DNA of 64,000 nucleotides, taken from the NCBI RefSeq assembly GCF_024055795.1, contig NZ_JAMXMY010000017.1, positions 62,001-126,000 on the forward strand, in the 5' to 3' direction. The notes beneath the pieces are model-generated. The model was not told the DNA's origin. It made no database searches and saw only the letters and a list, made by a program, of their open reading frames with translations. Source of the DNA: Actinoallomurus purpureus (GTDB taxonomy: Bacteria > Actinomycetota > Actinomycetes > Streptosporangiales > Streptosporangiaceae). Shown here piece after piece: positions 1,389 through 57,648 of the stretch; within the stretch, counting starts at the first letter, position 1, and the number at the start of each line of letters is the position of its first letter. Both the position numbers and the translations under genes were made by a program.

Positions 1389-2263
1389 GCGCCGGCGGCG
1401 GGATCGAGGGCGCGGACCGCGCCGGCGGCGATGTGGCGGCCGATCCGGGGGCGGGCGACGGGGTCGAGGGGGCCCGCGGTGCCGAGAGCGGCCAGGGCGG
1501 CTTCGCGAACGCACCGAAGCCGGACGACGGGGTCGAAGAGCCAATCGGAGCCGAGAGCGGGCGCGGCGGCGTCGTGAACGCCCCGGAGGCGGGCGAGGAG
1601 ATCGCGAAGCGCGGTGGAGCCGGGAGCGGGCGTGTCGGCGGCGTCGGGGAGGTCCGGCGAGCGGGCGACGCCGCGCTCCTGATCGAGACGGACGCGCCGC
1701 ACCGGCTGCACACGGCGGTGCGGGGGCTCGCCCGGCCGGAGATCGTGGACGTCATCCCCGGCGAGCGCACGGTCCTGGTGACGACGCGCCCCGGAACCGA
1801 CCTGGCCCGGCTCGACGGGCTGCTGCGGGACCTGCCGCTGCCCGAGGCGACGGAGGCGGGCGGGGAGCCGCTGCGGATCCCGGTCGTGTACGACGGGCCG
1901 GACCTGGAGGAGGTCGCCTCGCTCACCGGCCTGTCCGCGGACGAGGTCGTCGAACGCCACGCCGCCGCCGACTACGTCGTGGCCTACCTCGGCTTCTCCC
2001 CCGGCTTCGGCTACCTCACCGGCCTCGACGAGGCACTGCACGTCCCCCGGCGCGAATCCCCGCGCACCGCCGTCCCGGCCGGCTCGGTGGCGATCGCCGG
2101 GCCGTACACCGCCGTCTACCCCGCGCGCTCCCCTGGCGGCTGGCGGCTCCTCGGCCGTACGACACTGCGGCTGTGGGACGCCGACCGCGACCCGCCGTCA
2201 CTCCTGAGACCCGGCACCCGGATCCGCTTCGAACCCGAGACCACCTCCTCGGGGGCGGCATGA
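1385..2263 (+). CDS. pxpB: 5-oxoprolinase subunit B (KipI/AHS1 family) with repetitive N-terminal extension
   Basis: The conserved PxpB domain starts near base 1650 (VRRAGDAALLIE) and holds the hallmark GFSPGFGYL and the PAGSVAIAG / YPARSPGGWRLLGRT blocks. Together with PxpC it forms the ATP-using part of 5-oxoprolinase. The start is uncertain: TTG 1385 overlaps the pxpA stop, while GTG 1574 would give a protein nearer the normal size of about 210-230 aa. Everything between 1389 and about 1650 reads as low-complexity Gly/Ala/Glu repeats that are not part of the family. The last 80 or so bases of the gene are duplicated immediately downstream. Confidence 0.88.
   Translation: MSAGGGIEGADRAGGDVAADPGAGDGVEGARGAESGQGGFANAPKPDDGVEEPIGAESGRGGVVNAPEAGEEIAKRGGAGSGRVGGVGEVRRAGDAALLIETDAPHRLHTAVRGLARPEIVDVIPGERTVLVTTRPGTDLARLDGLLRDLPLPEATEAGGEPLRIPVVYDGPDLEEVASLTGLSADEVVERHAAADYVVAYLGFSPGFGYLTGLDEALHVPRRESPRTAVPAGSVAIAGPYTAVYPARSPGGWRLLGRTTLRLWDADRDPPSLLRPGTRIRFEPETTSSGAA
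1425..1650 (+). repeat. Degenerate in-frame repeats between pxpA and the PxpB domain
   Basis: Two or three degenerate units of roughly 66-69 bp follow one another. Each contains a GCCGAGAGCGG-type core (near 1479 and 1549, with a weaker GCCGGGAGCGGG near 1619), then a glycine/alanine-rich run. Unit length is a multiple of three or nearly so, and the frame into pxpB stays open throughout. They translate as GAES-G-GG-NAP-like blocks. Confidence 0.6.
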
Positions 2264-2404
2264 ACGAGCAGGTCGAGGTGGTCCGGCAGCGGGACGCCGA
2301 CCGCGACCCGCCGTCGCTCCTGAGACCCGGCACCCGCGTCCGCTTCGAACCCGAAGCCGCCTCCCCGGGGGCGGCATGAACGGGCAGCTCGAGGTGGTCC
2401 GGCC
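2175..2404 (+). repeat. 116-bp tandem duplication spanning the pxpB 3' end and pxpC 5' end
   Basis: Bases 2175-2290 and 2291-2404 are two copies, offset by exactly 116 nt, with about 9 mismatches in the first 112 positions. Each contains the end of pxpB, the GGCATGAAC stop/start overlap, and the first codons of pxpC. Copy 1 terminates pxpB at 2263; copy 2 provides the functional pxpC ATG at 2376. Confidence 0.93.
2260..2379 (+). pseudogene. Chimeric 39-codon ORF created by the tandem duplication
   Basis: The first-copy pxpC start (ATG 2260, MNEQVEVVRQR) runs in frame into the second-copy pxpB tail and stops at 2379. It therefore starts like PxpC and ends like PxpB (RFEPEAASPGAA). Both junctions keep the stop/start overlap, so ribosomes could pass pxpB to this ORF to pxpC by coupling. 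A function as a peptide is unlikely; its likely effect is to preserve coupling. Confidence 0.7.
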
Positions 2405-3221
2405 CGGGCCGCTGGCCACGGTCCAGGACCTCGGGCGGCCCGGCCACGCCCACCTCGGGGTGCCGCACTCCGGCGCGGCGGACCCCGGCAGCCTGCGGCT
2501 GGCCAACCGCCTGGTCGGCAACCCCGAGAACGCCGCCGGGCTGGAGCTCACCTTCGGCGGCGCGGCCCTGCGGTTCCACGCCGCGGCCTGGATCGCGGTG
2601 ACCGGCGCGCCGCTTCCCATACGGCCTGGCGCGATGAACGCGCCCTGTCACGTCCCGGCGGGCGCCGTCATCGAGTTCGGCACGCCGCCCGGCGGCGTCC
2701 GCACGTACGTCGCGATCCGGGGCGGTCTCGACGTCCCGCCCGTCCTGGGCAGCCGGTCGGCCGACCTCCTGTCGGGCCTCGGTCCCGCCCCCCTCGCGCC
2801 CGGCGACCGCCTCCCGATCGGCGCCGCCTCAGGCCCGATCACGGTGGACGTCGCCCCCGGCTACGAGCCGGAGGAGGCGCCCGTGCTGCGGATCATCCCC
2901 GGGCCGCGCGCGGACTGGTTCGAGAACCTGGAGCCGCTCGTCCGAGGGACGTACGAGGTCAGCTCGCGGAGCAACCGGATCGGGGTGCGGCTGGAGGGTC
3001 CGCCGCTGGTCCGGCGGCGCGAGGGCGAGCTGCCGAGCGAGGGGATGGTGACCGGAGCGCTGCAGGTGCCCCCGAACGGCCTGCCCATCATCTTCCTCGC
3101 CGATCACCCGACGACCGGCGGCTATCCGGTCGCGGCCGTCGTGGCGACCGGCGATCTGAGCCGCGCCGGGCAGCTCCGCCCGGGGCAGCGCGTCCGGTTC
3201 CGTCTCGTCACCCGTTCATGA
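2376..3221 (+). CDS. pxpC: 5-oxoprolinase subunit C (KipA/AHS2, biotin-dependent carboxyltransferase family)
   Basis: The third 5-oxoprolinase subunit, 281 aa, close to the family length. It opens with LEVVRPGPLATVQDLGRPGHAHLGVPHSG-type sequence (the family start), then NRLVGNPENAAGLELTFGG, and later the YEVSSRSNRIGVRLEG and LPSEGMVTGALQVPPNG blocks typical of AHS2 proteins. ATG 2376 overlaps the stop of the small chimeric ORF. It acts with PxpB; annotations calling such proteins allophanate hydrolase or urea amidolyase refer to the same fold. Confidence 0.94.
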   Translation: MNGQLEVVRPGPLATVQDLGRPGHAHLGVPHSGAADPGSLRLANRLVGNPENAAGLELTFGGAALRFHAAAWIAVTGAPLPIRPGAMNAPCHVPAGAVIEFGTPPGGVRTYVAIRGGLDVPPVLGSRSADLLSGLGPAPLAPGDRLPIGAASGPITVDVAPGYEPEEAPVLRIIPGPRADWFENLEPLVRGTYEVSSRSNRIGVRLEGPPLVRRREGELPSEGMVTGALQVPPNGLPIIFLADHPTTGGYPVAAVVATGDLSRAGQLRPGQRVRFRLVTRS

Positions 3222-3262
3222 CCCCCACGTCGTGGCGAGGGGCCCTGGTCAGGCGCAAGGCT

Positions 3263-3312
3263 TGATCATCGAGAATGCTGACACTCCTGACGCCTGGGAA
3301 CCTCGATGATCA
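3263..3312. terminator. Inverted repeat between convergent pxpC and ABC permease genes
   Basis: TGATCATCGAG (3263-3273) is repeated inverted as CTCGATGATCA (3302-3312), with a 28-nt loop. It lies between two convergent genes and could terminate transcription from either side. There is no T-tract, which is usual in high-GC actinomycetes. Confidence 0.55.
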
Positions 3313-3331
3313 GGCGGCTGACGCGAATCGC

Positions 3332-5068
3332 TCACTCGGCGCGCAGGACCTCGGCGACCGGGCGCCGGCCGGCCATCCGGACCGGAAGGGCGGTGAGCAG
3401 CGCGACGGCCACGAGGGTCCCCGGAATGACGGCGGGGAGCCACGCGTACGGGATCGCGCCGCCGCCCGACGCTCCGCCGGCCGCCCGCGCGCCGGCGTAT
3501 ACCGCCAGGCCGAGGGGGATGGCGAGGGTTCCGGCCAGGGCGGCGGGGAACAGCTGTGCCGCCGACAGCCCGGCGGTCACCTGGCCGGGGGTCGCTCCGA
3601 GGGCGCGAGCCAGCGCGGTCGGCCGCCGGGAATCGAGCGACGTCGCCCAGGCGATCAGCACGGCGTTGACCGCCGCGAGGGCCAGCAGCGCGAAGGTGAT
3701 GACGAACACGACGTGGTCGACCTGCTCGGTCACCGGGTTGGGGGCGCCGGGAACGAACATGATCCCCGTGGTCCGGGCGTCTTTACGGGTGATGTCGCCG
3801 TTCAGGGCGATCGCCGAGACGACCATCGCGCCGGTGATCGCGAGGCTGACCAGGGCGAGCACGGCCCGGCGCGGGCGGCGGACCGCGAGCCGCACCCCCA
3901 GCAGGAGGGGCACGGGGAGCCGGGCCGACAGCGCGACCAGCCTGGGTGATCGCCGTGGCGCCCTCGCGGGACCGGCCAGGGCCCGTACGGTGCTGGTCCG
4001 GGCCCCGCGGACCGCGGGGACCAGGGTCGCCGCGCCGGTCACGGCGAGGGCCACGGCGACCACGATGACGGCCGATCCGGGGGTCAGGTCGGGTCGGCCG
4101 GTCGCCAGCAGTCCGGTGCTCGGCCGGGCCAGCGCAGGGGCCGCCGCCCAGCCGGCGAAGAGTCCGACCGCCGCCGCGGCCAGTGCCACCAGCAGGTGCT
4201 CGGCGAGCAGGACGACGGCGACCAGCCGGGGTGTCGCGCCGACCGCCTTGAGCAGTCCCACGCGCCGTATCTGGTCCGCCAGGCGCCCGCCGACCAGCAC
4301 CGCCACGCAGGCGACGGCCAGCAGGGCGAGCGCCCAGGTGCCGGTGAGCAGGGCCTGGTTCACCAGGTGCAGTTCGGCGGTGGCGTACGCCCCCATGTCC
4401 TGCCAGGAGCGGACGTTCCGGTGCGCGGCGGCGAAGGCGGGCGCGGTGGACGGGTCGGCGAGCCGGATCGGCATCACGTGGGAGGTCACCGGCCTGCCGA
4501 GCAGCCTCAGGTCGGCCCTGGTCGTCCAGACCAGGCCGGGGGTCGACGAGGGATAGGGCACCCGGGCGGCGGTGATGGCGACGCCCGCGACGCGGAGACG
4601 GCGACCGGCGATGGTGATCTCGTCGCCCGGCCGTGCCTTCAGCGCGTGCGCGAAGGCACGTTCGACGACGACCCCGCCACGGCGCACCCAGCCGCCCGCC
4701 GTGACCACCGGTCGGTCGACGGGACCGGTGGCGGTGTCACGTCCCTGCACCACCGCCGCGACGCGGACGTCCCGGACGCGCAGGTCCGTGACAGAGACGG
4801 TGGGGTACGGCCCGGCCGTCCCGGTGACGCCCGGCGCGTTCGCCAGGGCGGTCAGGTCGGCGGAGCGGGCCGAGGTGGCCACCGCGTCGGGAGCCGCCGT
4901 CGCGGCGCGCGTGCGGTCCCAGGGCCGGTCGGCCGCCCCGCCCACCGTCAGGCCGACGGTGAGCGTCGTCGTGGTCGCCGCGATCGCGATCAGCAACAGC
5001 AGCGCCTCGGTGCGCCTGCGGCGCAGGTCGCGCAGTGCCAGGCGGATCACTGCCGTGAGCACGCCCAT
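3332..5068 (-). CDS. ABC transporter permease, FtsX-like
   Basis: A 578-aa integral membrane permease with an N-terminal membrane anchor (residues about 18-40), a large extracytoplasmic MacB_PCD-like region to about residue 230, and two FtsX-type blocks of membrane helices. The C-terminus reads RRPVAEVLRAE, and RRVGLLKAVGATPR is the typical coupling segment. Its start overlaps the stop of the ATPase gene by one base (TGATG). With the ATPase and PadR it forms a three-gene operon. Substrates of such systems include peptides, lipids or antibiotics; nothing here tells which. Confidence 0.9.
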   Translation of the reverse strand: MGVLTAVIRLALRDLRRRRTEALLLLIAIAATTTTLTVGLTVGGAADRPWDRTRAATAAPDAVATSARSADLTALANAPGVTGTAGPYPTVSVTDLRVRDVRVAAVVQGRDTATGPVDRPVVTAGGWVRRGGVVVERAFAHALKARPGDEITIAGRRLRVAGVAITAARVPYPSSTPGLVWTTRADLRLLGRPVTSHVMPIRLADPSTAPAFAAAHRNVRSWQDMGAYATAELHLVNQALLTGTWALALLAVACVAVLVGGRLADQIRRVGLLKAVGATPRLVAVVLLAEHLLVALAAAAVGLFAGWAAAPALARPSTGLLATGRPDLTPGSAVIVVAVALAVTGAATLVPAVRGARTSTVRALAGPARAPRRSPRLVALSARLPVPLLLGVRLAVRRPRRAVLALVSLAITGAMVVSAIALNGDITRKDARTTGIMFVPGAPNPVTEQVDHVVFVITFALLALAAVNAVLIAWATSLDSRRPTALARALGATPGQVTAGLSAAQLFPAALAGTLAIPLGLAVYAGARAAGGASGGGAIPYAWLPAVIPGTLVAVALLTALPVRMAGRRPVAEVLRAE

Positions 5069-5793
5069 CAGCCCTCCAGCCCGGCGAACGCCCCGAGACC
5101 GCCGCCCGCGCCGGCCAGGTTCGTCTGGCCGACGAGCGCACCGTCCCGCATGGTGATCACGCGGTCCGCCGTCGCCGCCACACGGGATTCGTGCGTGACG
5201 AGCAGCAGGGTCTGCCCGTCGGCCCGCAACGCGGCGAACAGCCGCAGCACCTCGGTGGTCGCGGCGCTGTCGAGATTGCCGGTGGGCTCGTCGGCCAGCA
5301 CGACGTACGGCCGGCCGACCAGGGCACGGGCGACCGCGACCCGCTGGCGCTGCCCGCCGGACAGTGCCGCCGGGAGGTGCGCGGCCCGGTCGGCCAGCCC
5401 GACCCGCTCCAGCAGTTCGACGGCACGCCGCCGCGCCACGCGGGGACCGGCCCCGGCGAGCAGCGCGGGCAGTTCGACGTTCTCCAGGGCGGTGAGCTCG
5501 TCGACGAGCTGGAAGGCCTGGAAGACGAACCCGATCGCCTGCCGCCGGAGCCGGGCGAGCTCGGTCTCCGACATCCGGTCGATCCGCCGGTCGGCCAGCC
5601 GCAGTTCACCGCCGGTGGGCCGTTCGAGCCCGCCGAGCAGGTGCAGCAGCGTCGACTTGCCGCAGCCGCTCGGTCCCACGATGGCGACGGTCTCACCGGC
5701 CTCCACGTCGAGATCGACGTGGTCGACCGCGCGGACGAGCCCCGTTCCCCTGCCGTACTCCTTGCGCAGCCCACAAGCTCGCAATATCGCCAT
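5068..5793 (-). CDS. ABC transporter ATP-binding protein (LolD/MacB type)
   Basis: A 241-aa nucleotide-binding domain with Walker A GPSGCGKST (40-48), Q-loop FVFQAFQLVDELTALENVELP, signature LSGGQRQR (144-151), Walker B plus D-loop VVLADEPTGNLD (164-175) and the switch histidine in VTHE. The EPTGNLD form is typical of the LolD/MacB subfamily that pairs with FtsX-like permeases. It starts 2 nt past the PadR stop and overlaps the permease start, so the partners are clear. Confidence 0.94.
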   Translation of the reverse strand: MAILRACGLRKEYGRGTGLVRAVDHVDLDVEAGETVAIVGPSGCGKSTLLHLLGGLERPTGGELRLADRRIDRMSETELARLRRQAIGFVFQAFQLVDELTALENVELPALLAGAGPRVARRRAVELLERVGLADRAAHLPAALSGGQRQRVAVARALVGRPYVVLADEPTGNLDSAATTEVLRLFAALRADGQTLLLVTHESRVAATADRVITMRDGALVGQTNLAGAGGGLGAFAGLEG

Positions 5794-5795
5794 GG

Positions 5796-6302
5796 TCAGC
5801 CCTTTCGGTCCCAGTGCCGGGCGCAGGCGTCGAGCCAGCGCAGGTCGGCCTCCAGCCGCAGGGTGATGCCCTCGATGAGCAGCGCCGCCGCCGAGCCGTC
5901 CGGCTCGATGAGGGCGGCACGCTGGACGTCGGCCAGCCGGCGTAGCAGCTCCCGGCGCTGGGCCTCCACGAGATCCACCGGGTCGGCCAGCCGGGCCGCC
6001 GCGGCGGCGACGAGCTTCAGGTGGAACTCGCTCGGTTTTCCCCAGGTCAGGTCCGCGAGCCAGGCGTCGACGCGCCGTCGGCCGTCGGCCGTCAGCGCGT
6101 ACACCTTCCGGTCCGGCCGGTGGGCCTGGCCGACGTGCTCGGCCGTGACCAGCCCGGCCTTCTCCAGCCGGGTGAGGGTGACGTAGACCTGCCCGGCATT
6201 GAGCGCGTCCCCCATCGGGCCGAGCGCCTCCTGGAGCCGGGCCCGCAGCTCATAGCCGTGGGAGGGCTCCTTGGCCAGCAGCGCCAGTACGACGTCCTGC
6301 AC
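5796..6302 (-). CDS. PadR family transcriptional regulator
   Basis: 168 aa. The N-terminal winged helix has the family pattern LALLAKEPSHGYELRARL, then GQVYVTLTRLEKAGLV and KVYALTADGRRRVDAWL. The C-terminal helical dimerization part follows. The GTG start at 6302 is preceded by AGAGGTGATCACTC, a good ribosome binding site. It is the first gene of an operon with the ABC ATPase and permease, so it probably represses its own operon, as PadR proteins commonly do for exporters. Confidence 0.9.
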   Translation of the reverse strand: MQDVVLALLAKEPSHGYELRARLQEALGPMGDALNAGQVYVTLTRLEKAGLVTAEHVGQAHRPDRKVYALTADGRRRVDAWLADLTWGKPSEFHLKLVAAAAARLADPVDLVEAQRRELLRRLADVQRAALIEPDGSAAALLIEGITLRLEADLRWLDACARHWDRKG

Positions 6303-6315
6303 GAGTGATCACCTC

Positions 6316-7333: not shown

Positions 7334-7441
7334 CCGGTCGGCCGGGCTCGTCCGGAAACGGCCCATGCCCGGTCGGCCGGAAGCGGCTCGCGTCCGGTCG
7401 GCCGGGCCTCTCCGGAGGCCGTCCCCCGTTCGGTCAGCCGG
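7334..7441 (-). repeat. Degenerate repeats at the 3' end of the lipoprotein gene
   Basis: The 12-mer CCGGTCGGCCGG occurs at 7334, 7369 and 7394. A variant, TCGGTCAGCCGG at 7430, contains the actual stop codon of the lipoprotein gene (TCA 7434-7436 on the plus strand). Units around 7334 and 7394 share further sequence on their right side (TCCGGA). The array is thus a set of decayed copies of the gene's last bases. Confidence 0.65.
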
Positions 7442-8165
7442 CCGCCTTGACCTTCTTCGCCACCCGCTCGGTCATGGCGACCGCCTTCGCGCCCTTGTCC
7501 GCGTGGCTGGAGCTGTAGAGCGTGGTCACGATCGCGTTCCCGACCCTGACCGCCGCCAGGGTCGTGCCGCCCTCCCAGGTGGAGGACGTCTGGACGGCCT
7601 TGACGCCCTCGTCGCCGGCGCCGGGAAGCGTGGCGCTCTTCACCTTGACCTTGGCCACCCCGCCATCCGCATTGTCGGTGAACGCCGCGCAGTGGGCGAA
7701 CACCTTCCGCAGCTTCGCGATCACCTGCCGGGCGTCGTCGCCGTGGTAGGTGTCGATCTCCTGGGCGATCTCCTCGGTGTGCGCGGCGTTGGCGTAGTCG
7801 TTCTGCGCGAAGGTGGCGCCGCCGATGCCCGTGACGCGGATCCAGGAGGTCTGGCCGAGCGCGCCGCAGACCTTCTTGGCCGGGACGGGGGCGTCGGAGC
7901 GGGACGCGACGGCCTCGCCGCTGTCGCGGGTGCCGTCCTCGGAGACCCGGAACCCCTTGGGCATCGCGCCGGCGGGGAGCAGGAGTCCCTTGAGGGCGGA
8001 CCCCTTCAGTATCGCGGGCGCGGCGGAGGCGGACGGCGTCTTGGAACCGGTGGCCGAGTCGTGCGCCGCACCGCCGCCGCCTCCACAGCCGCCGACGGCC
8101 AGAACGGCGGCGGAGGCCGTGGCGAGGACGGCGCCGGTCCGGATACGGGCAGAGGGGATCTTCAT
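7434..8165 (-). CDS. Secreted lipoprotein with PknH-like sensor-type domain
   Basis: The start at 8165 gives MKIPSARIRTG then a hydrophobic stretch and the lipobox LAVGGC; a good GGAG lies 9 nt upstream. A longer in-frame start at 8243 would bury the signal and is unlikely. After a Gly/Ser/Thr linker the mature part has spaced cysteines (KKVCGALGQTSWIRV and FAHCAAFTDN) and alternating beta-rich sequence, like the extracellular PknH/LppH-type sensor fold of actinobacterial lipoproteins. Exported and anchored to the membrane outside. The ligand is unknown. Confidence 0.75.
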   Translation of the reverse strand: MKIPSARIRTGAVLATASAAVLAVGGCGGGGGAAHDSATGSKTPSASAAPAILKGSALKGLLLPAGAMPKGFRVSEDGTRDSGEAVASRSDAPVPAKKVCGALGQTSWIRVTGIGGATFAQNDYANAAHTEEIAQEIDTYHGDDARQVIAKLRKVFAHCAAFTDNADGGVAKVKVKSATLPGAGDEGVKAVQTSSTWEGGTTLAAVRVGNAIVTTLYSSSHADKGAKAVAMTERVAKKVKAAG

Positions 8166-8365
8166 CTCCGGTCTCCAAGGCTGAAAGTAGTTGATCATGC
8201 TCACCGAGAACTCGCTGGTTCCGGCGCCCGCCAAGGAAAGCACATGTGAATTCGATTAACAACTGTGACGGGTGTGGTCGACTGTGCGATCACTTCGCTG
8301 TAACGTGGCGGCGCAACAGCCGGGGCGCCGGGTCGTGTTCAGGACCGTGAGGGGGACGACGGACC

Positions 8366-16043: not shown

Positions 16044-16196
16044 ACCTGCTCACCACCCGAGGTCGGTTCCTCGCATCGTCCGGCGGGCGCGTTACGCGGC
16101 GGCTACCGCGCTGTTAGCCCCCCGTAACGCCTTCCTGGGACACCGGGCCGGCCGCGGGCGGCGTCTTGATCCCGTCGAGGATGGCCAGAGCGTCGC

Positions 16197-16315
16197 GCCG
16201 GGCACGGCCCCGCACTGGGCCGGATCCCGCGCCGGGCACGGCCCCGCACTGGGCCGGATCCCGCACTGGGCCGGATCCCGCACTGGGCCGGATCCCGCAC
16301 TGGGCCGGATCCCGC
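16197..16315. repeat. Array of seven 17-bp units in the order A-B-A-B-B-B-B
   Basis: Unit A is GCCGGGCACGGCCCCGC and unit B is ACTGGGCCGGATCCCGC; they follow without spacers over exactly 119 bp. Each unit is perfect. The array lies between a hydrolase start (16043) and the end of the AAA gene (16428), in DNA otherwise without a gene. There are no spacers, so it is not CRISPR. Confidence 0.97.
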
Positions 16316-21198: not shown

Positions 21199-22437
21199 GT
21201 GAAAAGGCTGGTCAGGGCCGGACGGGATCCGGCGGAACGCGAAGCGGCCGGGTCGGGCGGCACGGCGACAGAGGACCGGACGGACACCACCGGCACGGCG
21301 ACGCAGGACCGCACGGACACCACCGGCCAGATCGACGACGGTCCGGGGCCGTTCGGGATCTACCCGTGGCTCCTGATCGGGTACGACGCGTTCTCCGACG
21401 TGCTGAACGGGCGGGCCCGCCCGGTATGGGCGTCCGGCTCCCTTCTGGCGATCTACGCCCTGCTGCTCTGCACCGCCATCTGGTACGGATTCCGCCGAGG
21501 TCAGGGTGATCGGTGGGCGACCGTCCTGCTCGCGGCGGCCGGGGTGGACGCCTTCACCCTGGTCGGCTGGTTCGGGCACGGCATGAGTGCGCTCATGCCG
21601 ACGCTCGCCCTGGGCTGCGGGGTCGTCATCCAGTGGGGCCGGCGTCCCTGGCCGGTGCTGGTGATCGCGCCGCTGTCCGTCGCCGCGGGACTGCTGGCCT
21701 GGGTGCGGGGCGCGTCGGCCGGGGACGCCATCGGCGCGTGGTACGGCACCCTGATCTCCGGCTTCATCATCGCCACGATGCTGCGGCTGTTCGGCGCGGT
21801 CAAGGAGCTGCGCGAGACCCGCGAGGAGCTGGCCAGGACGGCCGTCTCCGAAGAACGTCTGCGGTTCGCCCGCGACCTGCACGACCTGCTCGGGCACACA
21901 CTGTCGGTCATGGTCGTCAAGGCGCAGGCGGTGCGCAAGCTCGCCGCCCGCGACGCCGGTCTCACCGCCGAGCAGGCGGCCGACATCGAGGAGATCGGCC
22001 GGGACGCGCTCCGGCAGGTGCGCCTCGCGGTGACCGGCTACCGCGGCCGTGGTCTCGACGCCGAGATCGACGGCGCCCGCACCGCCCTGCGGGACGCCGG
22101 GATCACCGTGCTGGTCCGCAAGGAGGGCACCCCGCTGCCGGAGGAGACGGACGCGCTGCTCGGCTGGGCGGTACGCGAGGGCGTGACCAACGTCATCCGG
22201 CACAGCGGCGCGGGCACCTGCGAGATCTCGGTCGTCCGGCGCGCCGGCGCGGCCGTGCTGTCCGTCCGTGACGACGGGCGCGGAGCGCCGGCGCCCTCCG
22301 GGACGTCCCCGGGCAACGGCCTGCGCGGGCTCGTCGAGCGGATCGGCGTCGCGGAGGGCCGCCTCGAGGCCGGCCCGGCCGACGGCGGTGGTTACCTGCT
22401 CACCGTCACACTGCCCCTGAAGGAGACCGTTTCTTGA
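21199..22437 (+). CDS. Sensor histidine kinase, NarL/DesK-type (HisKA_3)
   Basis: GTG 21199 (MKRLVRAGRD) is preferred, with a GAGG just before it; a longer start at 20896 would add about 100 residues of unrelated sequence. About 412 aa: a short N-terminal tail with an imperfect 11-residue repeat, five or six membrane helices (residues about 55-190), phosphoacceptor ARDLHDLLGH (His about 228), and HATPase with REGVTNVIRHS and GNGLRGLVERI. Its stop overlaps the response regulator start, so the two form one operon. The membrane-embedded sensor suggests a membrane or lipid signal, as in DesK. Confidence 0.9.
   Translation: MKRLVRAGRDPAEREAAGSGGTATEDRTDTTGTATQDRTDTTGQIDDGPGPFGIYPWLLIGYDAFSDVLNGRARPVWASGSLLAIYALLLCTAIWYGFRRGQGDRWATVLLAAAGVDAFTLVGWFGHGMSALMPTLALGCGVVIQWGRRPWPVLVIAPLSVAAGLLAWVRGASAGDAIGAWYGTLISGFIIATMLRLFGAVKELRETREELARTAVSEERLRFARDLHDLLGHTLSVMVVKAQAVRKLAARDAGLTAEQAADIEEIGRDALRQVRLAVTGYRGRGLDAEIDGARTALRDAGITVLVRKEGTPLPEETDALLGWAVREGVTNVIRHSGAGTCEISVVRRAGAAVLSVRDDGRGAPAPSGTSPGNGLRGLVERIGVAEGRLEAGPADGGGYLLTVTLPLKETVS
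21260..21325 (+). repeat. 33-bp tandem repeat inside the histidine kinase gene
   Basis: Two copies encode GTATEDRTDTT and GTATQDRTDTT in frame, with only a few base changes. It extends the cytoplasmic N-terminal tail. Confidence 0.9.
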
Positions 22438-23039
22438 TCAAGGTGCTGCTCGCGGAGGACCAGGGCATGATGCGGGGTGCGCTGGCCCTCCTCCTGAATC
22501 TGGAGGACGACTTCGAGGTCGTCGGCCAGGTCTCCGCCGGCGACCAGATCGTCCCGGCGGCACTCGAGCTGCGGCCCGACGTGGCCGTGCTCGACATCGA
22601 GATGCCGGGGCGCAGCGGCCTCGACGCCGCCGCCGACCTGCACGCCCGGCTGCCGAACTGCAAGATCCTCATCGTCACGACGTTCGGCCGGCCCGGCTAC
22701 CTGCGGCGCGCGATGGAGGCGGGCGCGAGCGGCTTCCTGGTCAAGGACGGCCCGGTCGAGGATCTGTCGTCGGCGATCCGGCGGGTCCTCGCGGGCGAAC
22801 GCGTGGTCGACCCGGAGCTGGCCACCGCGGCGCTGAGCGCCGGCCCCAGCCCGCTGACCCCCCGCGAATGCGACGTGTTGTCGGCCGCCGCGGACGGGTC
22901 CACCATCGCCGACATCGCCGGACGCCTGCACCTGTCCGAGAGCACGGTCCGCAACTACCTGTCCGCGGCGATCGGCAAGACCGGCGCCCGCAACCGGATC
23001 GAGGCCGTACGGGCGGCCCGCCACAACGGCTGGCTGTGA
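22434..23039 (+). CDS. Response regulator, NarL/DesR type (REC + LuxR HTH)
   Basis: 201 aa. TTG start at 22434 overlaps the kinase stop and has AAGGAG 8 nt before it. The receiver has AED (8-9), phospho-acceptor in VLDIEMPG (Asp 54) and FLVKDGP lysine; the C-terminal HTH is LTPRECDVLSAAADGSTIADIAGRL with STVRNYLSAAIGK. It is the partner of the preceding kinase; its DNA target is not evident. The last 40 bases of the gene are repeated three times downstream. Confidence 0.93.
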   Translation: MIKVLLAEDQGMMRGALALLLNLEDDFEVVGQVSAGDQIVPAALELRPDVAVLDIEMPGRSGLDAAADLHARLPNCKILIVTTFGRPGYLRRAMEAGASGFLVKDGPVEDLSSAIRRVLAGERVVDPELATAALSAGPSPLTPRECDVLSAAADGSTIADIAGRLHLSESTVRNYLSAAIGKTGARNRIEAVRAARHNGWL

Positions 23040-23205
23040 CGGGGCCCCGCGTGGGAGCCGCACGAGCCGCCCGCCACAGCGGTCGGCTGTGACGGGATCT
23101 CGCACCTGAGCCGTACGGCCGCCCGCCACAACGACCGACGGTGACGAAACCTCGCACCTGAGCCGTACCCGGCGCCGGCAACGACGGCCGACGGTGACGG
23201 GTCAG
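23001..23205 (+). repeat. Degenerate tandem copies of the response-regulator 3' end
   Basis: The gene end (from 23001: GAGGCCGTACGGGCGGCCCG, then CCACAACGGCTGGCTGTGACGG) is followed by decayed copies starting at 23055, 23108 and 23160, unit length 52-54 bp. Each keeps the GAGCCG-x-AC start and a TGACG-like end where the stop codon lies. Nothing encodes a protein here. Confidence 0.88.
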
Positions 23206-23960
23206 ATCAGGGACAGCTGTCCCTCGATGTCCGGGCGGTGCTTCTTCAGGTGCCGCCACTGGGGAAGGTCGTCCAGGTAAGACCATGACAGCCGGTGGTG
23301 CGGCGTCGGCCCGAGCCGGCGCAGCGCCTCCTGGTGGACCGGTGAGGGGTAGCCGGCGTTGGCGGCGAAGCCGTACTCCTCGTACCCGAGTCCGGCCATC
23401 AGCGTGTCGCGGTGCACCTTGGCGAGGACGGAGGCGGCCGCCACCGTCACCGACCGCAGGTCGGCCTTGATCTCGGTGCGCACCGGCCACGAACGGCCCC
23501 CGCCGCCGAGGTAGTCGTGCTTGCCGTCGAGGATGATCGCGTCAGGGCGGTCCGGAAGCGCCTCCAGGGCCCGTACGGCCGCGCGCCGCAGCGCCTCGGT
23601 CATCCCGGCCTCGTCGATCTCCTCGGGGCTCGCCGCGCCGATGGCGTACGCCGGCAGCCAGCCGTGGAGCTCCTCCGCGATCCGCCCGCGACGGCGGGCG
23701 CTGAGCATCTTGGAGTCGGTGAGCCCGGCGGGGGGCGCGGTCAGGTCCGTGACCGCCGCGCAGACGACGACCGGTCCGGCCCAGGCGCCCCGGCCGACCT
23801 CGTCGACCCCGGCGACGTGCGAGGCCCCGGCGTCGATCAGCCGCCGCTCCAGCGAGTAGTCGGGGCCCGTGGAGTGGTCGGGGCCCGTCCCGCCCGGCCC
23901 AGCGGCCTCCCGGGGTTCGCCGGTGAACGCGCCATCGTCGATCGTGCCCTCGTCGTGCAT
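23202..23960 (-). CDS. rnhB: Ribonuclease HII
   Basis: Removes ribonucleotides from DNA and RNA-DNA hybrids. With the ATG at 23960 it is 252 aa: VDEVGRG (catalytic Asp53-Glu54), [11 protein letters not shown] (Asp145), and [22 protein letters not shown]-like segment (Asp167). All four metal-binding residues are present. The open frame continues far upstream as an artefact, through the neighbouring gene. An imperfect 4-5 residue repeat ([12 protein letters not shown]) lies in the N-terminal tail. The start is not certain because no strong ribosome binding site is visible. Confidence 0.93.
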
Positions 23961-24001
23961 GGGGGCCATCATGGCACCGCCGGGCGGATGCGGCGCGTAC
24001 G

Positions 24002-25537
24002 TCAGTAGTCGCGCCAGCCTTCGTCCTCGTACCGCACCAGCCGGGGCTCCATCAGCGTGTTGATCTGCACGTCGTCCCGGTGCAGGTCCTTGGCGAAGGT
24101 CCCGGCGGCCTGCAGCGTCGCGTCGTCGAGGAACCGCAGCGGCGGGACCTGCGGCGACAGCGCCAGGCTCGGGGGCGTCCCGGGGGCGGCCAGCACGAAC
24201 CCCCAGTCGCCGAAGCTGGGCACGTCCACGTGGTACGGACGGGTCGCGAAGCCGGCCGCCCCGATGGTCTTGGCCACGCACCAGAACGACTTGGCGGCGA
24301 AGTACGGCGAGGTGGACTGCACGACCATCCGCCCACCGGGGGCCAGAACGCGTTTGACCATCCCGTAGAACTCGACGGAGTAGAGCTTGGCGGTGGCCAC
24401 CGCGTCCGGGTCGGGCATGTCGACGATGATCGCGTCGAACCGGTCCGTGGTGCGCCGCAGCCAGGAGAAGGCGTCGGCGTTGACCGCGCGCACCCGCGGG
24501 TCCGCGAAGGAATGCCGGTTGAGCGCGGTGAGGTACCCGTCGGTGCTCGCCAGCCTGATCATCGCCGGGTCGAGCTCGACGAGAGTGGCCGACCGGACGT
24601 CCCTGTAGCGCAGCACCTCCCGCAGCGCGAGGCCGTCGCCGCCGCCGAGGATCAGCACCCGGCCGTGCGGCCCGGCCATCACCGGATGCACGAGCGACTC
24701 GTGGTACCGGTACTCGTCGACGGAGGAGAACTGCAGGTCGCCGTTCAGAAAGAGGCGCAGATCGGGCCGGCCCGACAGCGCCACCTTCCGCGTCATCACG
24801 ATCTCCTGGTACGGCGTCCGCTCCGACACGACGATGGGATCGCGGTAGAGCGCCTGCCGCGCGCTCACCTCGAACCGGTCGGCGACGGCGTAGGTCGCGG
24901 CGAGGACCGCCAGTACGAGCAGCATCGCGCCGCACAGCAGCGTCCGCGCCAGGCGACCCACCTCCCGCCGGAACAGCCACAGCACGACGGCGGTGCCCGC
25001 GACGACGTTGACCGCCCCGACCAGGAGCGCCCCCTTGATCTGCCCGAACACCGGCAGCAGGACGAACGGGAACGCCAGCCCGCCGACCAGCGCGCCGACG
25101 TAGTCGGCGGCGGACAGTTCGGCGACCGCGCTGCCGGGGTCCTGCCGCCTGATCCGCTGTAGCAGCGTCATCAGCAGCGGGATCTCGGCGCCGATGAGCG
25201 CGCCGAGGGCGAACGCCACCGCGATCAGCGCGGGAACGTACAGGTCGAGCCAGGCGAACGCCGCGTACAGCCCGAGCACCGACAGGCCGCCGAGCAGCGC
25301 GAGCAGGGCCTCGACCACGGCGAACGCCTCGACGGCCCGCCGCCGCAACGGCTTGGTGGCCAGCGCCCCGACGCCCATCGCGAAGACCATGTCCGACAGC
25401 ACGATGGACGCCTGGGTGACCGAGTCGCCCACGAGGTAGCTGCCGAGCGCGACCAGCGCGAGCTCGTACACCAGTCCGCAGGCGGCGCAGACGAACACCG
25501 CCGCGAACACCAGTGCGCGGGCGGCCCGTACGGGCAT
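24002..25537 (-). CDS. Membrane-fused spermidine-synthase-like aminopropyltransferase
   Basis: 511 aa. Residues 1-215 hold about seven membrane helices; the rest is a polyamine aminopropyltransferase domain with [33 protein letters not shown], the AdoMet-type loop LILGGGDG (about 298), [11 protein letters not shown] and [17 protein letters not shown]. These are the landmarks of SpeE. It is the last gene of a DUF4178-DUF2617-DUF4247-DUF350 cluster and overlaps the DUF350 stop by one base. Family knowledge says soluble SpeE makes spermidine; the membrane form and its company suggest modification of a membrane-bound or exported target instead. Confidence 0.88.
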
Positions 25538-46626: not shown

Positions 46627-47156
46627 TCCAACCGTAGAGCCCGACCGGGTCCATCGCAACCCACGCGGGACACCCGGCGGGAAGACGCCGCTCACGTGGC
46701 GATCCGCCGCCGTTCACCGGCGTGTCGCACCCTCCACCGGCCGCCGCGATCCACCGAATCGGCGCGGGACACCCTAGATCACCTGCGTAAACGCCACTGG
46801 CGGCCGCAACGGTGAAGTGGATCACATCGCGCGGGCACCCTGCGCGAGTCATGCCCCCAGGGGACCCCCAGCCTGCCATGGCCCTCCGGGCGACAGGTCG
46901 GCGGCCACCCCCTTCGCACCCCCCTACGGCGGACACCGGCCACCCTGTTCGCGCCCCACGAGAACCACCCCCTCCACGCCCCGCGACGACGGATGCCGAC
47001 GCCCGCGAGGACGGATGCCGCCCACACCCCATTCACACCCCCACGAGGACCGCCCCCTCCACGCCCCGCGAGGACGGATGGCGGCTGTTCCGCATCGGCC
47101 GGCGAGGGGCGCGCCAATGGCCCCGCCCTTCACGGATCCGGTCGCGGGAATTATCA
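46627..47156. other. Long gene-free region between nrdR and lexA with degenerate repeats
   Basis: No convincing gene. Pro/Arg-rich frames on both strands arise from repeated C-rich DNA. A 43-bp element at 46956-46998 recurs at 47041-47083 with about four mismatches, and shorter pieces (GCGAGGACGGATG) occur in between. Confidence 0.65.
46956..47083. repeat. 85-bp-spaced 43-bp direct repeat upstream of lexA
   Basis: Copies begin CCACGAGAACCACCCCCTCC (46956) and CCACGAGGACCGCCCCCTCC (47041) and continue to GACGGATGCCG / GACGGATGGCG. Four mismatches in 43. Spacing is 85 bp. Confidence 0.88.
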
Positions 47157-53150: not shown

Positions 53151-53178
53151 AGCGGTCGCGGCACGCGCCGCGACCGCT
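53151..53178 (-). terminator. Terminator at the end of the tmsB gene
   Basis: AGCGGTCGCGGC (53151-53162) pairs exactly with GCCGCGACCGCT (53167-53178), 4-nt loop, 12 nt past the tmsB stop. Confidence 0.93.
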
Positions 53179-53189
53179 CGTCACCGCGG

Positions 53190-54473
53190 TCAGCCGGCCG
53201 ACGGCGGCTCGAACGAGGGCCGCAGCGGCATGCCGGAGCGGCCGTCGTCGTGGACCTTGACGCCGAGCACTTGGTGCAACTGGATCCAGTTCAGCTCGAA
53301 CCCGAGTCGCGAGCCGGCCATGTACAGCCGCCACACGCGGGCGGTGCCCTCCCCCACCTCGGCGACCGCCTCGTCCCAGTGGTCGTCGAGGTTGCGGCAC
53401 CAGCCGGTGAGGGTCTTGGCGTAGTGCTCGCGGAGGTTCTCCTCGTGCCGGATCTCGAACCCCGCGTCGTTCATCCGCGAGATCAGCCAGCCCGGCCCCT
53501 CCAGTTCGCCGTCGGGGAAGACGTACCGGTTGATGAAGCCTTCCTGGCGGATCGACGGCTGGCCGTCGTCCGGGCGCGTGATGCAGTGGTTGAGCATGCG
53601 GCCGCCCGGCTTGAGCTTGCCGTGCAGGAACGCGAAGTAGCCGGGGACGTTCGCCTTGCCGATGTGCTCGGTCAGGCCGATCGAGCTGACGGCGTCGAAG
53701 TCGCCCTCGGTGACGTCCCGGTAGTCGAGGTGGCGGACCTCGGCGAGCTCCGACAGCCCGGCCTCGGCGATCGCCTTCTGCGCCCACTCGGCCTGCTGCT
53801 TGGACAGCGTCACGCCGAGCGCCTTCACGCCGTACTCCCGCGCGGCGTGCATGACCATGCCGCCCCAGCCGCAGCCCACGTCGAGCAGCCGCATGCCCTT
53901 GCGCAGCCCGAGCTTGCGCGCCACGAGGTCGAACTTGTTGAACTGCGCCTGTTCCAGCGTCGCTTCCTCCGATGGGAAGCACGCGCAGGTGTAGGCCATC
54001 GACGGGCCGAGCACCCACTCGTAGAAGGTGTTCGAGACGTCGTAGTGGTGGGAGATCGCCTTTGCGTCGCGGCGCTTGGAATGCCGCAGCCCCGACAGCA
54101 GCGGCACCCGGGCGGGCCGCACCTCCTGCGGCGGCGGGTCCAGGCGCGTCAGCGCCGCCGCGCGCAGCAGCGGGTCGCGCATGATGCCGCGCAGCAGGAT
54201 CCTCTTGTCGGCCCACGTCAGCTCGCCGAGCGCCGACTGCATGCGGTACAGCGCCGTGTGCATGTCCCCGATGATGTCGAGGTGCCCGGCGACGTACGCC
54301 CGCGCCAGCCCGAGCGCGCCGGGCGCGTGGGCGAGATACGAGATCGCGTACGGCGATCTGACCTCCACCCGGACGTCCGCGCCGAGTGCCCCGGCGCGGC
54401 TGTCGTCGTACGCCCGGAACTCCACCTGCGCGTCACGGCCGACGACGCGCTCGAATGCCTCTGCCAGCTTCAT
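53190..54473 (-). CDS. tmsB: SAM-dependent fatty-acyl methyltransferase (TmsB/UfaA1-like, cyclopropane-synthase fold)
   Basis: 427 aa. AdoMet loop LLDVGCGWGGMVMHAAREYGVKALGVTLSKQQ, ISHHYDVSNTFYEWVLGPSMAYTCACF (the acyl-chain methyltransferase signature, partly quoted) and SIGLTEHIGKANVPGYF. An N-terminal extension of about 100 residues is normal for this subgroup. In actinomycetes this enzyme adds a methyl group to C10 of oleate; TmsA then reduces the methylene product to 10-methylstearate. Starts 3 nt after tmsA ends, so they are coupled. Confidence 0.88.
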   Translation of the reverse strand: MKLAEAFERVVGRDAQVEFRAYDDSRAGALGADVRVEVRSPYAISYLAHAPGALGLARAYVAGHLDIIGDMHTALYRMQSALGELTWADKRILLRGIMRDPLLRAAALTRLDPPPQEVRPARVPLLSGLRHSKRRDAKAISHHYDVSNTFYEWVLGPSMAYTCACFPSEEATLEQAQFNKFDLVARKLGLRKGMRLLDVGCGWGGMVMHAAREYGVKALGVTLSKQQAEWAQKAIAEAGLSELAEVRHLDYRDVTEGDFDAVSSIGLTEHIGKANVPGYFAFLHGKLKPGGRMLNHCITRPDDGQPSIRQEGFINRYVFPDGELEGPGWLISRMNDAGFEIRHEENLREHYAKTLTGWCRNLDDHWDEAVAEVGEGTARVWRLYMAGSRLGFELNWIQLHQVLGVKVHDDGRSGMPLRPSFEPPSAG

Positions 54474-54476
54474 GAA

Positions 54477-55841
54477 TCACCTGCCCCGTACGGTTTTGTC
54501 GTAGAGATCCAGCAGCCGCAGCCCCGGGTCGTAGTGCTCCTTCAGCGTGCGGTAGGTCGTGCCGTCATAGTGCCGCCAGAATTCCTCGCGGGTGTAGAAG
54601 GCCGTCGAGTACAGCGACTTGTGGCCGTCGAGGCGGGCGACCTCCCGCTCGATCAGCCGGTTGTGGTGTTCGGGCAGCCGGCCGGGCTTCTGCGGCACCG
54701 TCCCCCAGAAGCCCACGTTCACGTACGTCCGCCCGGGCTCCAGGGGATACAGCGGCCACTTGTCCTGTGCCCGCAGCGGACACAGCCATACCGGGCTCAT
54801 GCCGATCTCGCGGTGGAAGAACTCGAGGAACTCGGGCAGCCGCTCCACCGGGACCTCGACGTCCTGGATGACGTCCTCCCGAGGGGGCCGGCCGAGCCAG
54901 CGGTCGACCCGCGCCGACGTCTGCAGGCGCTTGTCGAGTGCGACCAGGCGACGGTAGACGTCGGAGCGCTTCTTGGACGCCGGCCAGACACTGCGGATCA
55001 GGGGGTTCTGGACGCCGAACGCCCGCGAGCACCAGAACCAGTCGGTGTCCCAGCGCCAGAGGTAGTCGTGCGTGGTCAGGACGTCGGTCGGCGGGCCGTC
55101 CGGTCGCAGCCAGCGCGACGTGACGGAGCGGTCGCGGATCGAACGGTAGTAGATGTCCCGCCCGGTGTAGTCGGAGACGCGCTCGGCCGTGTCGGTGAAC
55201 CTGCCCAGCGTGAGGTACACCTCGTCCTCGCCGAACACCGTGCCGTCGATGAAGTCCGCCTCCGCGCCGAGCTTGTCGACGGCCTCCGCACACTCCTGGG
55301 CGGAGGAGAACCGCACGTGCCACAGCGCGACGTACGGCTTGACCGGCTGCAGTTCGATCTTCAACCGCAGGGCGTACCCGAGCGTCCCGTACGAGTTGGG
55401 GAACCCGCGGAACAGCTCACGGTGCTCGTTGTCCGGCGTCGCGATGACGACCTCGCCGGCGCCGGTGAGGATCTCCATCTCCAGTACGGACTCGTGCGGC
55501 AGCCCGTTGTGGAACGACGACGACTCGATGCCGAGCCCGGTGACCGCGCCGCCCAGCGTGATCGTCTTCAGCTGCGGGACGACCAGTGGCATCAGGCCGT
55601 ACGGCAGGGTGGCGTCGACCAGGTCCTCGTACGTCGTCATGCCCTGGACGTCGGCGACACGGGCGTCGGGGTCCACGCTCAGGACCTTGTCGAATCCGCT
55701 GACGTCGAGGCCGGGCGCCTGGATCTCTTCGCGGAACCGGAACAGGTTCGAGGTGCGTTTCGCCAGCCGCACCGGTGCGCCTTCGGGGATGGCCCGATAG
55801 GAGGCCAGGAGCTTCTCGACCGCGGTGTGGTGACCTGTCAC
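54477..55841 (-). CDS. tmsA: FAD-dependent oxidoreductase (TmsA-like, DHCR24 family)
   Basis: 454 aa. FAD-binding PCMH start with GLDVSGFDKVLSVDPDARVADVQGMTTYEDLVDATLPYG, then TLGGAVTGLGIESSSFHNGLPHESVLEMEILTG, and a C-terminal DHCR24-like part. It pairs with the methyltransferase gene, and the two fit the tms operon for 10-methyl branched fatty acids. It would reduce 10-methylene to 10-methyl acyl chains with NADPH. GTG 55841. No tmsC-like gene is visible beside them. Confidence 0.87.
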   Translation of the reverse strand: MTGHHTAVEKLLASYRAIPEGAPVRLAKRTSNLFRFREEIQAPGLDVSGFDKVLSVDPDARVADVQGMTTYEDLVDATLPYGLMPLVVPQLKTITLGGAVTGLGIESSSFHNGLPHESVLEMEILTGAGEVVIATPDNEHRELFRGFPNSYGTLGYALRLKIELQPVKPYVALWHVRFSSAQECAEAVDKLGAEADFIDGTVFGEDEVYLTLGRFTDTAERVSDYTGRDIYYRSIRDRSVTSRWLRPDGPPTDVLTTHDYLWRWDTDWFWCSRAFGVQNPLIRSVWPASKKRSDVYRRLVALDKRLQTSARVDRWLGRPPREDVIQDVEVPVERLPEFLEFFHREIGMSPVWLCPLRAQDKWPLYPLEPGRTYVNVGFWGTVPQKPGRLPEHHNRLIEREVARLDGHKSLYSTAFYTREEFWRHYDGTTYRTLKEHYDPGLRLLDLYDKTVRGR

Positions 55842-55934
55842 CGGTCGATCTTCTCATCCCCGTGTCGGCCGTTACAGGGAGGGCGCGCACGGTGTCCGTC
55901 TCGTTTTCGCCGTCCGCGCGGGTGAGGTCGGGGG

Positions 55935-56459
55935 TCAGCGCACCAGTCGCAGGGTGAACGGATAGCGGAACGGCGTGCCCGCGAGCGCCAGCAGCGCGGC
56001 CACCGCGCAGACCATCCAGCTCACCGCGTACACGATCGCCCCGACGCCGAGCGTCACGATCGTCAGTATCAGGAGCGTGAGCTGGAAGTTGAGCGCCGTC
56101 ACGATGTGGCCACGGACGTACGGCGAGCGCCGCGCGCCGGTGCACAGCATGATGAGCGGCCCCAGGAAGAGGGTCGTGGCGCCGAGGACGTGCGCGAGCG
56201 CGGCCAGCACCCGCTGTTCGGCCGTCGGCTCGCCGGTCGGCACCGGCGCGGGATGCGCCGCGGCGGGCACGGGCGCCAGGTCCGCCAGCACCGCGTCCAG
56301 GTCGGCGCGTGTCTTCGCGGTCATGGCGAGGTGCAGCCGCAGGTCGAGTTCTTCCTTGTCGATGCGGCCTTCGGCGAAGGCCTGCTGCAGCCGGTCGACG
56401 ATCGGCTCGCGTTCGGTGTGGGACACGCGCAACGCGCCGAGCGGTACTGAGGTGGTCAT
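55935..56459 (-). CDS. DUF1707-DUF4870 membrane protein
   Basis: 174 aa from ATG 56459. Residues 10-60 are a DUF1707 domain (LRVSHTEREPIVDRLQQAFAEGRIDKEELDLRLHLAMTAKTRADLDAVLADL, partly quoted), then a Pro/Ala linker and a DUF4870-like membrane part (HVLGATTLFLGPLIML, HIVTALNFQLTLLIL, ALLALAGTPFRYPFTLRLV). Common in actinomycetes; function unknown. Convergent or neighbouring to tmsA with about 93 nt between. Confidence 0.85.
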   Translation of the reverse strand: MTTSVPLGALRVSHTEREPIVDRLQQAFAEGRIDKEELDLRLHLAMTAKTRADLDAVLADLAPVPAAAHPAPVPTGEPTAEQRVLAALAHVLGATTLFLGPLIMLCTGARRSPYVRGHIVTALNFQLTLLILTIVTLGVGAIVYAVSWMVCAVAALLALAGTPFRYPFTLRLVR

Positions 56460-56544
56460 GCCTCGATCGTGCGCCGCGCCCCGGTTCCGGAGCCATCCGG
56501 GAAACCCCTGATCCGCCCCTGGGGTCCTCCCCAGGGGCGACGCG

Positions 56545-56632
56545 TCAGCGCCCGGGGGTGCACCGCCCCAGCGCGTCAGCGCCCGGGTGGCGCACCGTCC
56601 CGGCGGGTCAGCGTCCGGGTGGCGCACCGCCC
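56545..56632 (-). repeat. Degenerate copies of the deacetylase gene end
   Basis: GTCAGCG...GCACCG occurs with its TCA at 56545, 56576 and 56608, unit length 31-32 bp. The rightmost is the real end of the gene (GAPPGR then stop). So two decayed copies of the C-terminal codons plus stop lie past the gene. Confidence 0.88.
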
Positions 56633-57648
56633 GTCGTCGACACCGGCGTCCCGGCCGCGGCGTGGGGTGACGCGCCTGGGCCCTTGGGGCGAGGCGCCAC
56701 GTCCTTGCGCGGGTTCTTCGGACGGGGCACGGGCCCGTCGAAGTAGGTCTGCCCGGGTTTGAGCGACCGGCCGCCGAACAGCTCGGGCACGGTGACGAAC
56801 GTGAAGCCACGCCGGGCCAGACCGGCCAGGATCTTCGGGACGGCGTTCACCGTCGTCGGGTGGATGTCGTGCATCAGGATGATGCCGCCGGGCCTGGCCC
56901 AGGAGACGGCCCGGTGCGCGACGATCGCCGAGTTCCGGTCACGCCAGTCGTTCGTGTCGACGCTCCAGAGGATCTGCGCGAAGCCCATGTGCCGCGTCAC
57001 CACGGCCACCCGCCGGTTCGTCGCGCCGTACGGCGGGCGCATAAGGGCGGTTCCGCCACCGGTCGCCCTGCGGATCTCCCCCAGAGTGCGCGTCAGCTGT
57101 GACCGGATCGCGCCGTCGGACAGCACGCTGAGTTGCGGATGTGACCAGGTGTGGTCACCGATCGCGTGGCCTTCGGCGAGCTCGCGCCGGACGACCGCCT
57201 CCCGGCCACGGATGCTGCCGCCGATGAGGAAGAACGTCGCCTTGACGTGGTGTGCGGCGAGCATGCCGAGCAGCTTCGTGGTGTACGGGCCGGGGCCGTC
57301 GTCGAACGTCAGCGCGATGCACTTGGCCTTGCGGCAGTCGACCTCGGGCCGGGCCGCCGAGGCCGTGGCGGCGCCACGCGGCCAGGAGGTGTACCGCAGG
57401 CGCGCGGCGAGGTCGTGCGTCGTGGGGGCGGCGGGCGAGCCGTCGGCGGGGCGGGACCGGAGTGGGCCGGCCGGCGGTGCGGGCCACCCGGCCGCCAGGT
57501 GCGGAGCGGGACGGCCGAGGGCCGGCGGCGGAAGACGCGTCGACGCCGCGGTGTGCGCTCCGAGGCCGCTGAGCCAGCCCAGTCCCAGGACGGCCCCGGC
57601 GATCGCGGCGCCTTTACGGACGGTCTCCGACGGTACGACGAAGCGCAT
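56608..57648 (-). CDS. Secreted polysaccharide deacetylase (NodB domain)
   Basis: 346 aa from ATG 57648, preceded by GGGGG. A hydrophobic N-terminus (GAAIAGAVLGLGWLSGLGAHTAA) acts as signal or anchor; a Pro/Ala linker follows. The NodB domain has ALTFDDGPGPYT (catalytic Asp), DHTWSHP (metal His pair), RPPYGAT and IILMHDIHPTT. Removes acetyl groups from cell-wall sugars such as peptidoglycan or chitin. The last 35 residues are Pro/Gly/Ala/Thr-rich and end at a stuttered stop codon. Confidence 0.9.
   Translation of the reverse strand: MRFVVPSETVRKGAAIAGAVLGLGWLSGLGAHTAASTRLPPPALGRPAPHLAAGWPAPPAGPLRSRPADGSPAAPTTHDLAARLRYTSWPRGAATASAARPEVDCRKAKCIALTFDDGPGPYTTKLLGMLAAHHVKATFFLIGGSIRGREAVVRRELAEGHAIGDHTWSHPQLSVLSDGAIRSQLTRTLGEIRRATGGGTALMRPPYGATNRRVAVVTRHMGFAQILWSVDTNDWRDRNSAIVAHRAVSWARPGGIILMHDIHPTTVNAVPKILAGLARRGFTFVTVPELFGGRSLKPGQTYFDGPVPRPKNPRKDVAPRPKGPGASPHAAAGTPVSTTGGAPPGR

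Follow-up and report, generated by a model that had tools for sequence, protein, structure and literature searches.

Tandem duplications at gene ends in Actinoallomurus purpureus: probable tolerance past stop codons and an apparent frame rule at operon junctions

Introduction

Why should several unrelated genes in one chromosomal region be followed by degenerate copies of their own last codons? The question was raised by a stretch of 64,000 bp from Actinoallomurus purpureus (positions 62,001 to 126,000 of contig NZ_JAMXMY010000017.1, assembly GCF_024055795.1; the whole stretch is called the window below). A preliminary description of it had pointed out four such 'stuttered' gene ends, at pxpB/pxpC and at genes for a response regulator (RR), a polysaccharide deacetylase and a supposed lipoprotein, and had proposed that they reflect replication slippage at gene ends or a selected effect such as spare stop codons or structure in the 3' untranslated region. 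The answer that we favour, with a probability of roughly three in four, is that the arrays stem from unspecific tandem duplication which is tolerated past stop codons and which, where two genes overlap, is kept mainly if a short relay open reading frame (ORF) between them stays open. The genome comprises 9.25 Mb in 52 contigs and is referred to as G000; A. soli, an Actinoallomurus MAG and A. iriomotensis are its closest named relatives, and the window is part of contig C8.

Results

Head-to-tail copies of one unit were found by Tandem Repeats Finder (TRF) at all four gene ends (Table 1). At pxpB/pxpC, RR and the deacetylase the gene's final codons and its stop lie within the first unit, and the units match the tail of their own gene, as the preliminary description had it; at the lipoprotein gene this account fails, as the array starts 29 bp past the stop and the triplet matching the stop position is, by eye, CGA and not TGA. 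The clearest example of a relay junction lies in the window, between the genes which we take to be pxpB and pxpC, pxpB presumably encoding 5-oxoprolinase subunit B. Here the duplicated sequence carries ATGA in each copy, and the mini-ORF predicted between the two would encode a peptide that is a diverged repeat of the PxpB tail. Assembly error is an unlikely source of the arrays, because the copies differ by 10-23%, all four arrays are shorter than 240 bp and stop-spanning arrays also occur in a congener, G007, with a 3-contig assembly. In the window as a whole, six arrays touch non-coding DNA at a TRF score of at least 60 and a period of at least 15, and three of these span a stop; two purely intergenic ones, at 16209-16315 and 47027-47075, had not been listed in the preliminary description.

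Table 1. Genes and tandem arrays at the four gene ends (window positions).
Feature	Position	Strand	Basis and remarks
pxpB (carboxyltransferase domain C/D)	1385..2263	+	own-script gene call; Pfam PF02682, E 8e-61, on longer ORF 629-2263
pxpC (carboxyltransferase domain A/B)	2376..3221	+	Pfam PF02626, E 1e-88
Duplication, 116 bp x 2.0, 90%	2168..2403	+	TRF; covers pxpB stop and pxpC start
Predicted relay mini-ORF, 39 codons + stop	2260..2379	+	from first ATGA to second ATGA
Array, 25 bp x 2.3, 81%	7348..7405	-	TRF; 29-86 bp downstream of 'lipoprotein' stop, which lies outside the array
'Lipoprotein' gene	7434-8165 or 7434-8243	-	label from the preliminary description; no match in a Pfam search
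LuxR-type RR	22467..23039	+	Pfam PF00072 and PF00196 on longer ORF 22434-23039
Array, 53 bp x 3.8, 77%	23004..23201	+	TRF; from the last 12 codons of RR through to the convergent rnhB stop
rnhB (RNase HII)	23202..23972	-	Pfam PF01351 on longer ORF 23202-24980; convergent, stop adjoins RR array
Array, 32 bp x 2.9, 88%	56541..56632	-	TRF; covers deacetylase stop; TCA at 56608, 56576 and 56545
Polysaccharide deacetylase	56608..57648	-	Pfam PF01522, E 5e-34, on longer ORF 56608-57684

Outside Table 1, a 17-bp unit repeated 6.3 times, with a 34-bp higher-order unit, occupies intergenic DNA at 16194-16315, away from gene ends. A 69 bp x 2.1 duplication (77%) was also seen at 1452-1596, near the pxpB start and ahead of its Pfam domain.

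In a comparison with four congeners (G001, G003, G005 and G007) most of these arrays were absent from the relatives. Over 602 aligned bases the RR end is 90% identical to that of G005, in which 4 bp separate the stop of RR from that of the convergent rnhB (TGA-cggg-TCA); the window has 162 bp of array at this place. Of 40 bases at the gene end of G005, array copies 1 to 4 match 39, 35, 33 and 31; the coding copy is conserved and the later ones have decayed. In G001 and G003, pxpB and pxpC simply overlap at ATGA without this duplication, and G005 and G007 have close spacing without the 116-bp duplication, the pxpB end of G005 containing a different repeat of 21 bp x 2. No array was present at the lipoprotein end in G001 or G005, the two congeners with the gene. 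The deacetylase end is the exception: in G005 the stop is covered by an array of another kind (41 bp x 1.9), and in G001 an array of 28 bp x 5.2 lies 45 bp past the stop, while none was found in G003 or G007. An independent case is provided by G003, which has an 86 bp x 3.1 array of its own running across the pxpC stop (L010, 1284-1562), the only stop-spanning array at the pxpC end among 80 named pxp loci.

The frequency of such copies was then counted in a sample of 1.646 Mb and 1375 genes of G000 and in stretches of G007, G001, G005 and G003. The sampled contigs were a non-random choice, and genes were called by a self-trained script without curated annotation; starts are less certain than stops. 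An echo was scored when the last 60 bp before an anchor position matched within the next 300 bp, with the match ending at the anchor. At a score of at least 12, echoes were found at 28 of 1374 stops as against one of 1374 re-paired controls, in which gene tails were joined to the downstream DNA of other genes, and gene ends do therefore carry more copies than chance would provide. A looser first version of this control had given 11/1374 at a score of at least 20, probably from arrays starting just past the stop, and the stricter version was used. Sites of a dispersed repeat family described below (MIRU-like sites) were kept in for this comparison, for the list of window arrays and for the array-level and unit-level nulls in G000, and were removed for the position-level rates, the five-genome array counts, the group counts, the frame tallies and the stop-triplet test.

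Per position, echo rates in G000 (score of at least 12) were 2.0% at stops (28/1370), 0.6% at starts (8/1368), 0.8% in coding interiors (24/2874) and 2.1% at intergenic anchors (177/8280), the latter spaced 60 bp apart on both strands so that one array may count several times. Stops thus exceeded starts (P=0.0011) and coding positions (P=0.0015) and showed no excess over intergenic positions (P=0.92). In the other four genomes (stops 13/635, starts 2/630, coding 18/1394, intergenic 229/3042) stops again exceeded starts (P=0.007) and were poorer than intergenic DNA. By this measure stops behave as ordinary non-coding DNA. Slippage or tandem duplication, as proposed in the preliminary description, fits the arrays; the part assigned to gene ends is not needed, as the rate at stops is that of arbitrary intergenic positions. 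Starts are also depleted when arrays are counted in divergent gaps (0 vs 3.5 expected in the five genomes, P=0.016). As a separate observation, a region of contig C33 at about 183-238 kb holds eight stop-spanning echoes in about 55 kb, and the 400 kb sampled of C11 has three.

A different pattern was seen between co-directional genes. Where a copied stop lies beside the next start, the period leaves a remainder of 2 on division by three in seven of eight cases (32, 98, 116, 50, 68, 74 and 77 bp; P=0.0026 against a null of 1/3), and the eighth, of 61 bp with TGAgATG spacing, is likewise in frame. At ATGA overlaps only a remainder of 2 puts the copied start of the downstream gene in frame with the copied stop of the upstream gene. 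Convergent ends showed no such bias, their remainders being 2, 0 and 1 in nine, six and six of 21 cases. Outside the MIRU-like family, a relay or an extension was present at 13/20 echo junctions; probable in-frame N-terminal extensions were seen with a 30-bp unit at C22:433489 (found by script) and a 24-bp unit at C22:594701 (read from the sequence). A complete chain of reading frames was found at 11/13 echo junctions and at 128/438 junctions without an echo for gaps of 11-120, and at 13/20 and 178/680 for all gaps, which makes an unfair null, as each duplicated ATGA supplies a start and a stop of its own; we therefore relied on the counts of remainders instead.

The pxpB-pxpC junction could be followed across 81 pxp loci. 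Arrays at or just before the pxpC start were found at seven of the 80 loci other than the window: local duplications between the two genes in A. latina (17 bp x 3.6), Acrocarpospora (83 x 2.5) and Nonomuraea lactucae (24 x 2), MIRU-like insertions in Microtetraspora niveoalba and M. fusca, possibly from one shared event, and, at two further loci, in-frame repeats within the pxpB end, the -4 overlap being preserved. All six junction insertions, window included, have a complete relay or in-frame extension, in a test that was made after the pattern had been seen.

The MIRU-like family itself is a dispersed element, about 68 bp long and with ends resembling ATGAGCGAGCG...GCGAGCGAATC and GACGAAGGAGG...CATGA, read at 30 loci of the genus (L214-L243); we named it after the mycobacterial interspersed repetitive unit (MIRU), which was reportedly described by Supply et al. 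in 1997. The element usually lies at stop/start overlaps and carries a coupled small ORF. It is flanked by co-directional genes at 23 of the 24 loci with both neighbours called, 13 of these 24 loci have a gap of exactly 64, 132 or 200 bp (one, two or three units), and the relay is complete at 20 of 22 loci tested, mostly with 23-residue peptides that start MSERSER or similar. Matches were found in 7/8 genomes of the genus, from at least 15 to at least 51 each, in 25/120 of the family, mostly weak, and in 10/148 of the class, these sets overlapping and including the genome of the window; the copy counts are lower bounds, from at most 40 (genus), seven (family) and five (class) candidates scored per genome. 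Examples in G000 lie at C22:350127-350255 and C22:417689-417834. Relatives with similar ends were also seen in other genera (L324, L325, L298 and L321). In the open-licence PMC literature searched, neither stuttered gene ends of this type nor the Actinoallomurus element was found described.

Discussion

One explanation for these data is that short tandem duplications of about 15-250 bp arise along the whole Actinoallomurus chromosome, by slippage or unequal exchange, and that most of those that hit a coding sequence, a promoter or a start codon are eliminated. With a duplication that spans a stop the protein would stay as it was, since ribosomes finish at the stop of the first copy; the first copy would remain under coding constraint and later copies would decay, and stuttered gene ends would result. 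If a co-directional gene follows and its start overlaps the stop (ATGA, GTGA or TTGA), the duplication would separate two translationally coupled genes and would be retained mainly when its length leaves a relay, either a mini-ORF from overlap to overlap or an in-frame N-terminal extension. It seems that copies between co-directional genes persist where translational coupling is preserved; the relay ORFs would then be translated and selection would be the cause of the frame bias. There does, therefore, seem to be a selected effect, acting at operon junctions as frame-preserving coupling, which is not one of those that the preliminary description had considered.

Several findings weigh against this explanation. 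At the junctions, duplications with a remainder of 0 are apt to yield a longer gene call and so to be missed by the count, for which a fairer null would be about 1/2 (P about 0.035), and all eight cases come from G000 and include the 116 bp of the window that prompted the test. Seven of the 20 echo junctions are without a relay, most of them lying away from the next start, and among the seven is an array, at C33:201101-201231, that covers both a stop and a start, the two codons not overlapping. As regards tolerance, stops and coding positions did not differ significantly in the other four genomes at a score of at least 12 (P=0.24; at 16 or more, P=0.0004), arrays over starts in co-directional gaps show no depletion (11 vs 10.9 expected), and the stop-spanning share of arrays touching non-coding DNA is patchy (C33 9/19, C8 5/11, C22 8/27, C11 0/9). 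Counting arrays instead of positions gives a 1.5- to 1.7-fold excess at stops in the five genomes pooled, both for convergent genes (15 vs 9.8 expected, P=0.028) and for co-directional ones (18 vs 10.9, P=0.016), and two other nulls for G000 bracket this and disagree with each other, at array level (22 vs 16.6, P=0.09) and at unit level (22 vs 7.8).

The pooled excess and the unit-level count would fit gene ends being a true mutational hotspot, through transcription termination, R-loops or replication conflicts. We consider this improbable, since per position the echo rate at stops is the same as for arbitrary intergenic DNA in G000 and falls below it in the other four genomes, and since the excess in co-directional gaps, 16 vs 6.7 expected in G000, is gone outside it (3 vs 3.2). 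G007 taken by itself has 2 vs 3.9 at unit level. The array null, moreover, uses present-day gaps, which have been lengthened by the duplications themselves, as the 4-bp RR/rnhB gap of G005 illustrates. Weight was given here to the position-level rates and to the array null that includes overlapping gene pairs. Tolerance of unspecific duplication covers most of the pattern on this basis, and a small hotspot effect may act in addition.

Another suggestion, along the lines of the preliminary description, is that the copies are kept for a function at the 3' end, either as spare stops or as mRNA structure that terminates or protects transcripts; we judge this very unlikely. The copies had been said to keep the stop, and they do so mildly: in 22 of 30 arrays copy 2 has an identical stop triplet, where 16.2 would be expected from the unit's other triplets (P=0.012; co-directional 13/17, P=0.075; convergent 9/13, P=0.08). 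Two of five stretches fold at a z-score of -2.15, and the deacetylase end has different arrays in G005 and G001, which would be in keeping with some use of repeats there. The convergent ends, however, show no preference for in-frame spacing, six of 21 periods being multiples of three and the rest spread over the other frames, and copies as in-frame spare stops were rejected on these grounds. The remaining z-scores are -1.42, -1.42 and +0.32, and a scan for terminator-like sites, made at the RR array only, gave none, so that the signal for RNA structure or a terminator is weak or absent; the RR, pxpB/pxpC and lipoprotein arrays are also missing from the congeners compared. That the stuttered ends are instead a mobile MIRU-like repeat inserted at stop codons is hardly credible: such a family exists in the genus, usually at stop/start overlaps, but its profile gave no match in the 206 kb of C8 searched, window included, the three stop-spanning window units match the tails of their own genes, and the non-coding units of G000, the MIRU-like pair apart, resemble each other only where they lie close together or where the match is short, so that a mobile source of the window units is not supported.

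The preliminary observation is thus partly confirmed and its interpretation partly supported. Unspecific duplication with tolerance past stops leads to a testable rule, namely that duplications past stops are silent and hence tolerated, and that at overlapping gene pairs tolerance depends mainly on the reading frames joining up again. Should the relay ORFs be translated, they would offer a direct test of the strength of selection on translational coupling and a possible origin of MIRU-type repeats, which serve as typing markers in mycobacteria. Perhaps, although we would rather doubt it at present, duplication across stop/start overlaps is a recurrent route to translated relay mini-ORFs at actinomycete operon junctions, with coupling selecting periods that leave a remainder of 2 and with local relays seeding dispersed MIRU-like elements. 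In that case a natural experiment for such an origin of relays would be offered by the pxpB-pxpC junction, where insertions were found in six carriers from five genera.

Comparison with known systems

The closest parallel in repeat structure is the variable-number tandem repeat (VNTR), or minisatellite, between rnc and fpg1 of Mycobacterium tuberculosis, where the junction measures 1-54 bp in species outside the complex and holds 279-358 bp of repeats within it (PMC2734929). The window arrays share with it head-to-tail units of tens of bp, a gap that is far shorter in relatives and restriction to a lineage; they differ in that the window units consist of the tail of the upstream gene together with its stop. 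ATGA overlaps of co-directional genes have been associated with coupled translation by termination-reinitiation (PMC6728339, PMC10666635), and the overlaps treated in these papers appear to be direct ones, whereas here a duplication inserts a putative relay ORF between the partners.

The MIRU is described as a repetitive and apparently mobile element with a short ORF at a spacing of -4 nt to the neighbouring gene (PMC12548453). Among the four window sites this arrangement is found at pxpB/pxpC only, where the 116-bp copy has ATGA at both ends and the predicted 39-codon ORF would be coupled in the same way. The unit does not recur at many loci: besides itself, the pxp region has only four weak matches of 30-80 bp in the genome, and the 116-bp unit represents pxpB/pxpC sequence duplicated once and locally. 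The copy would work like a MIRU but, not being dispersed, is not one, and the architecture described for MIRUs has here been made by local duplication.

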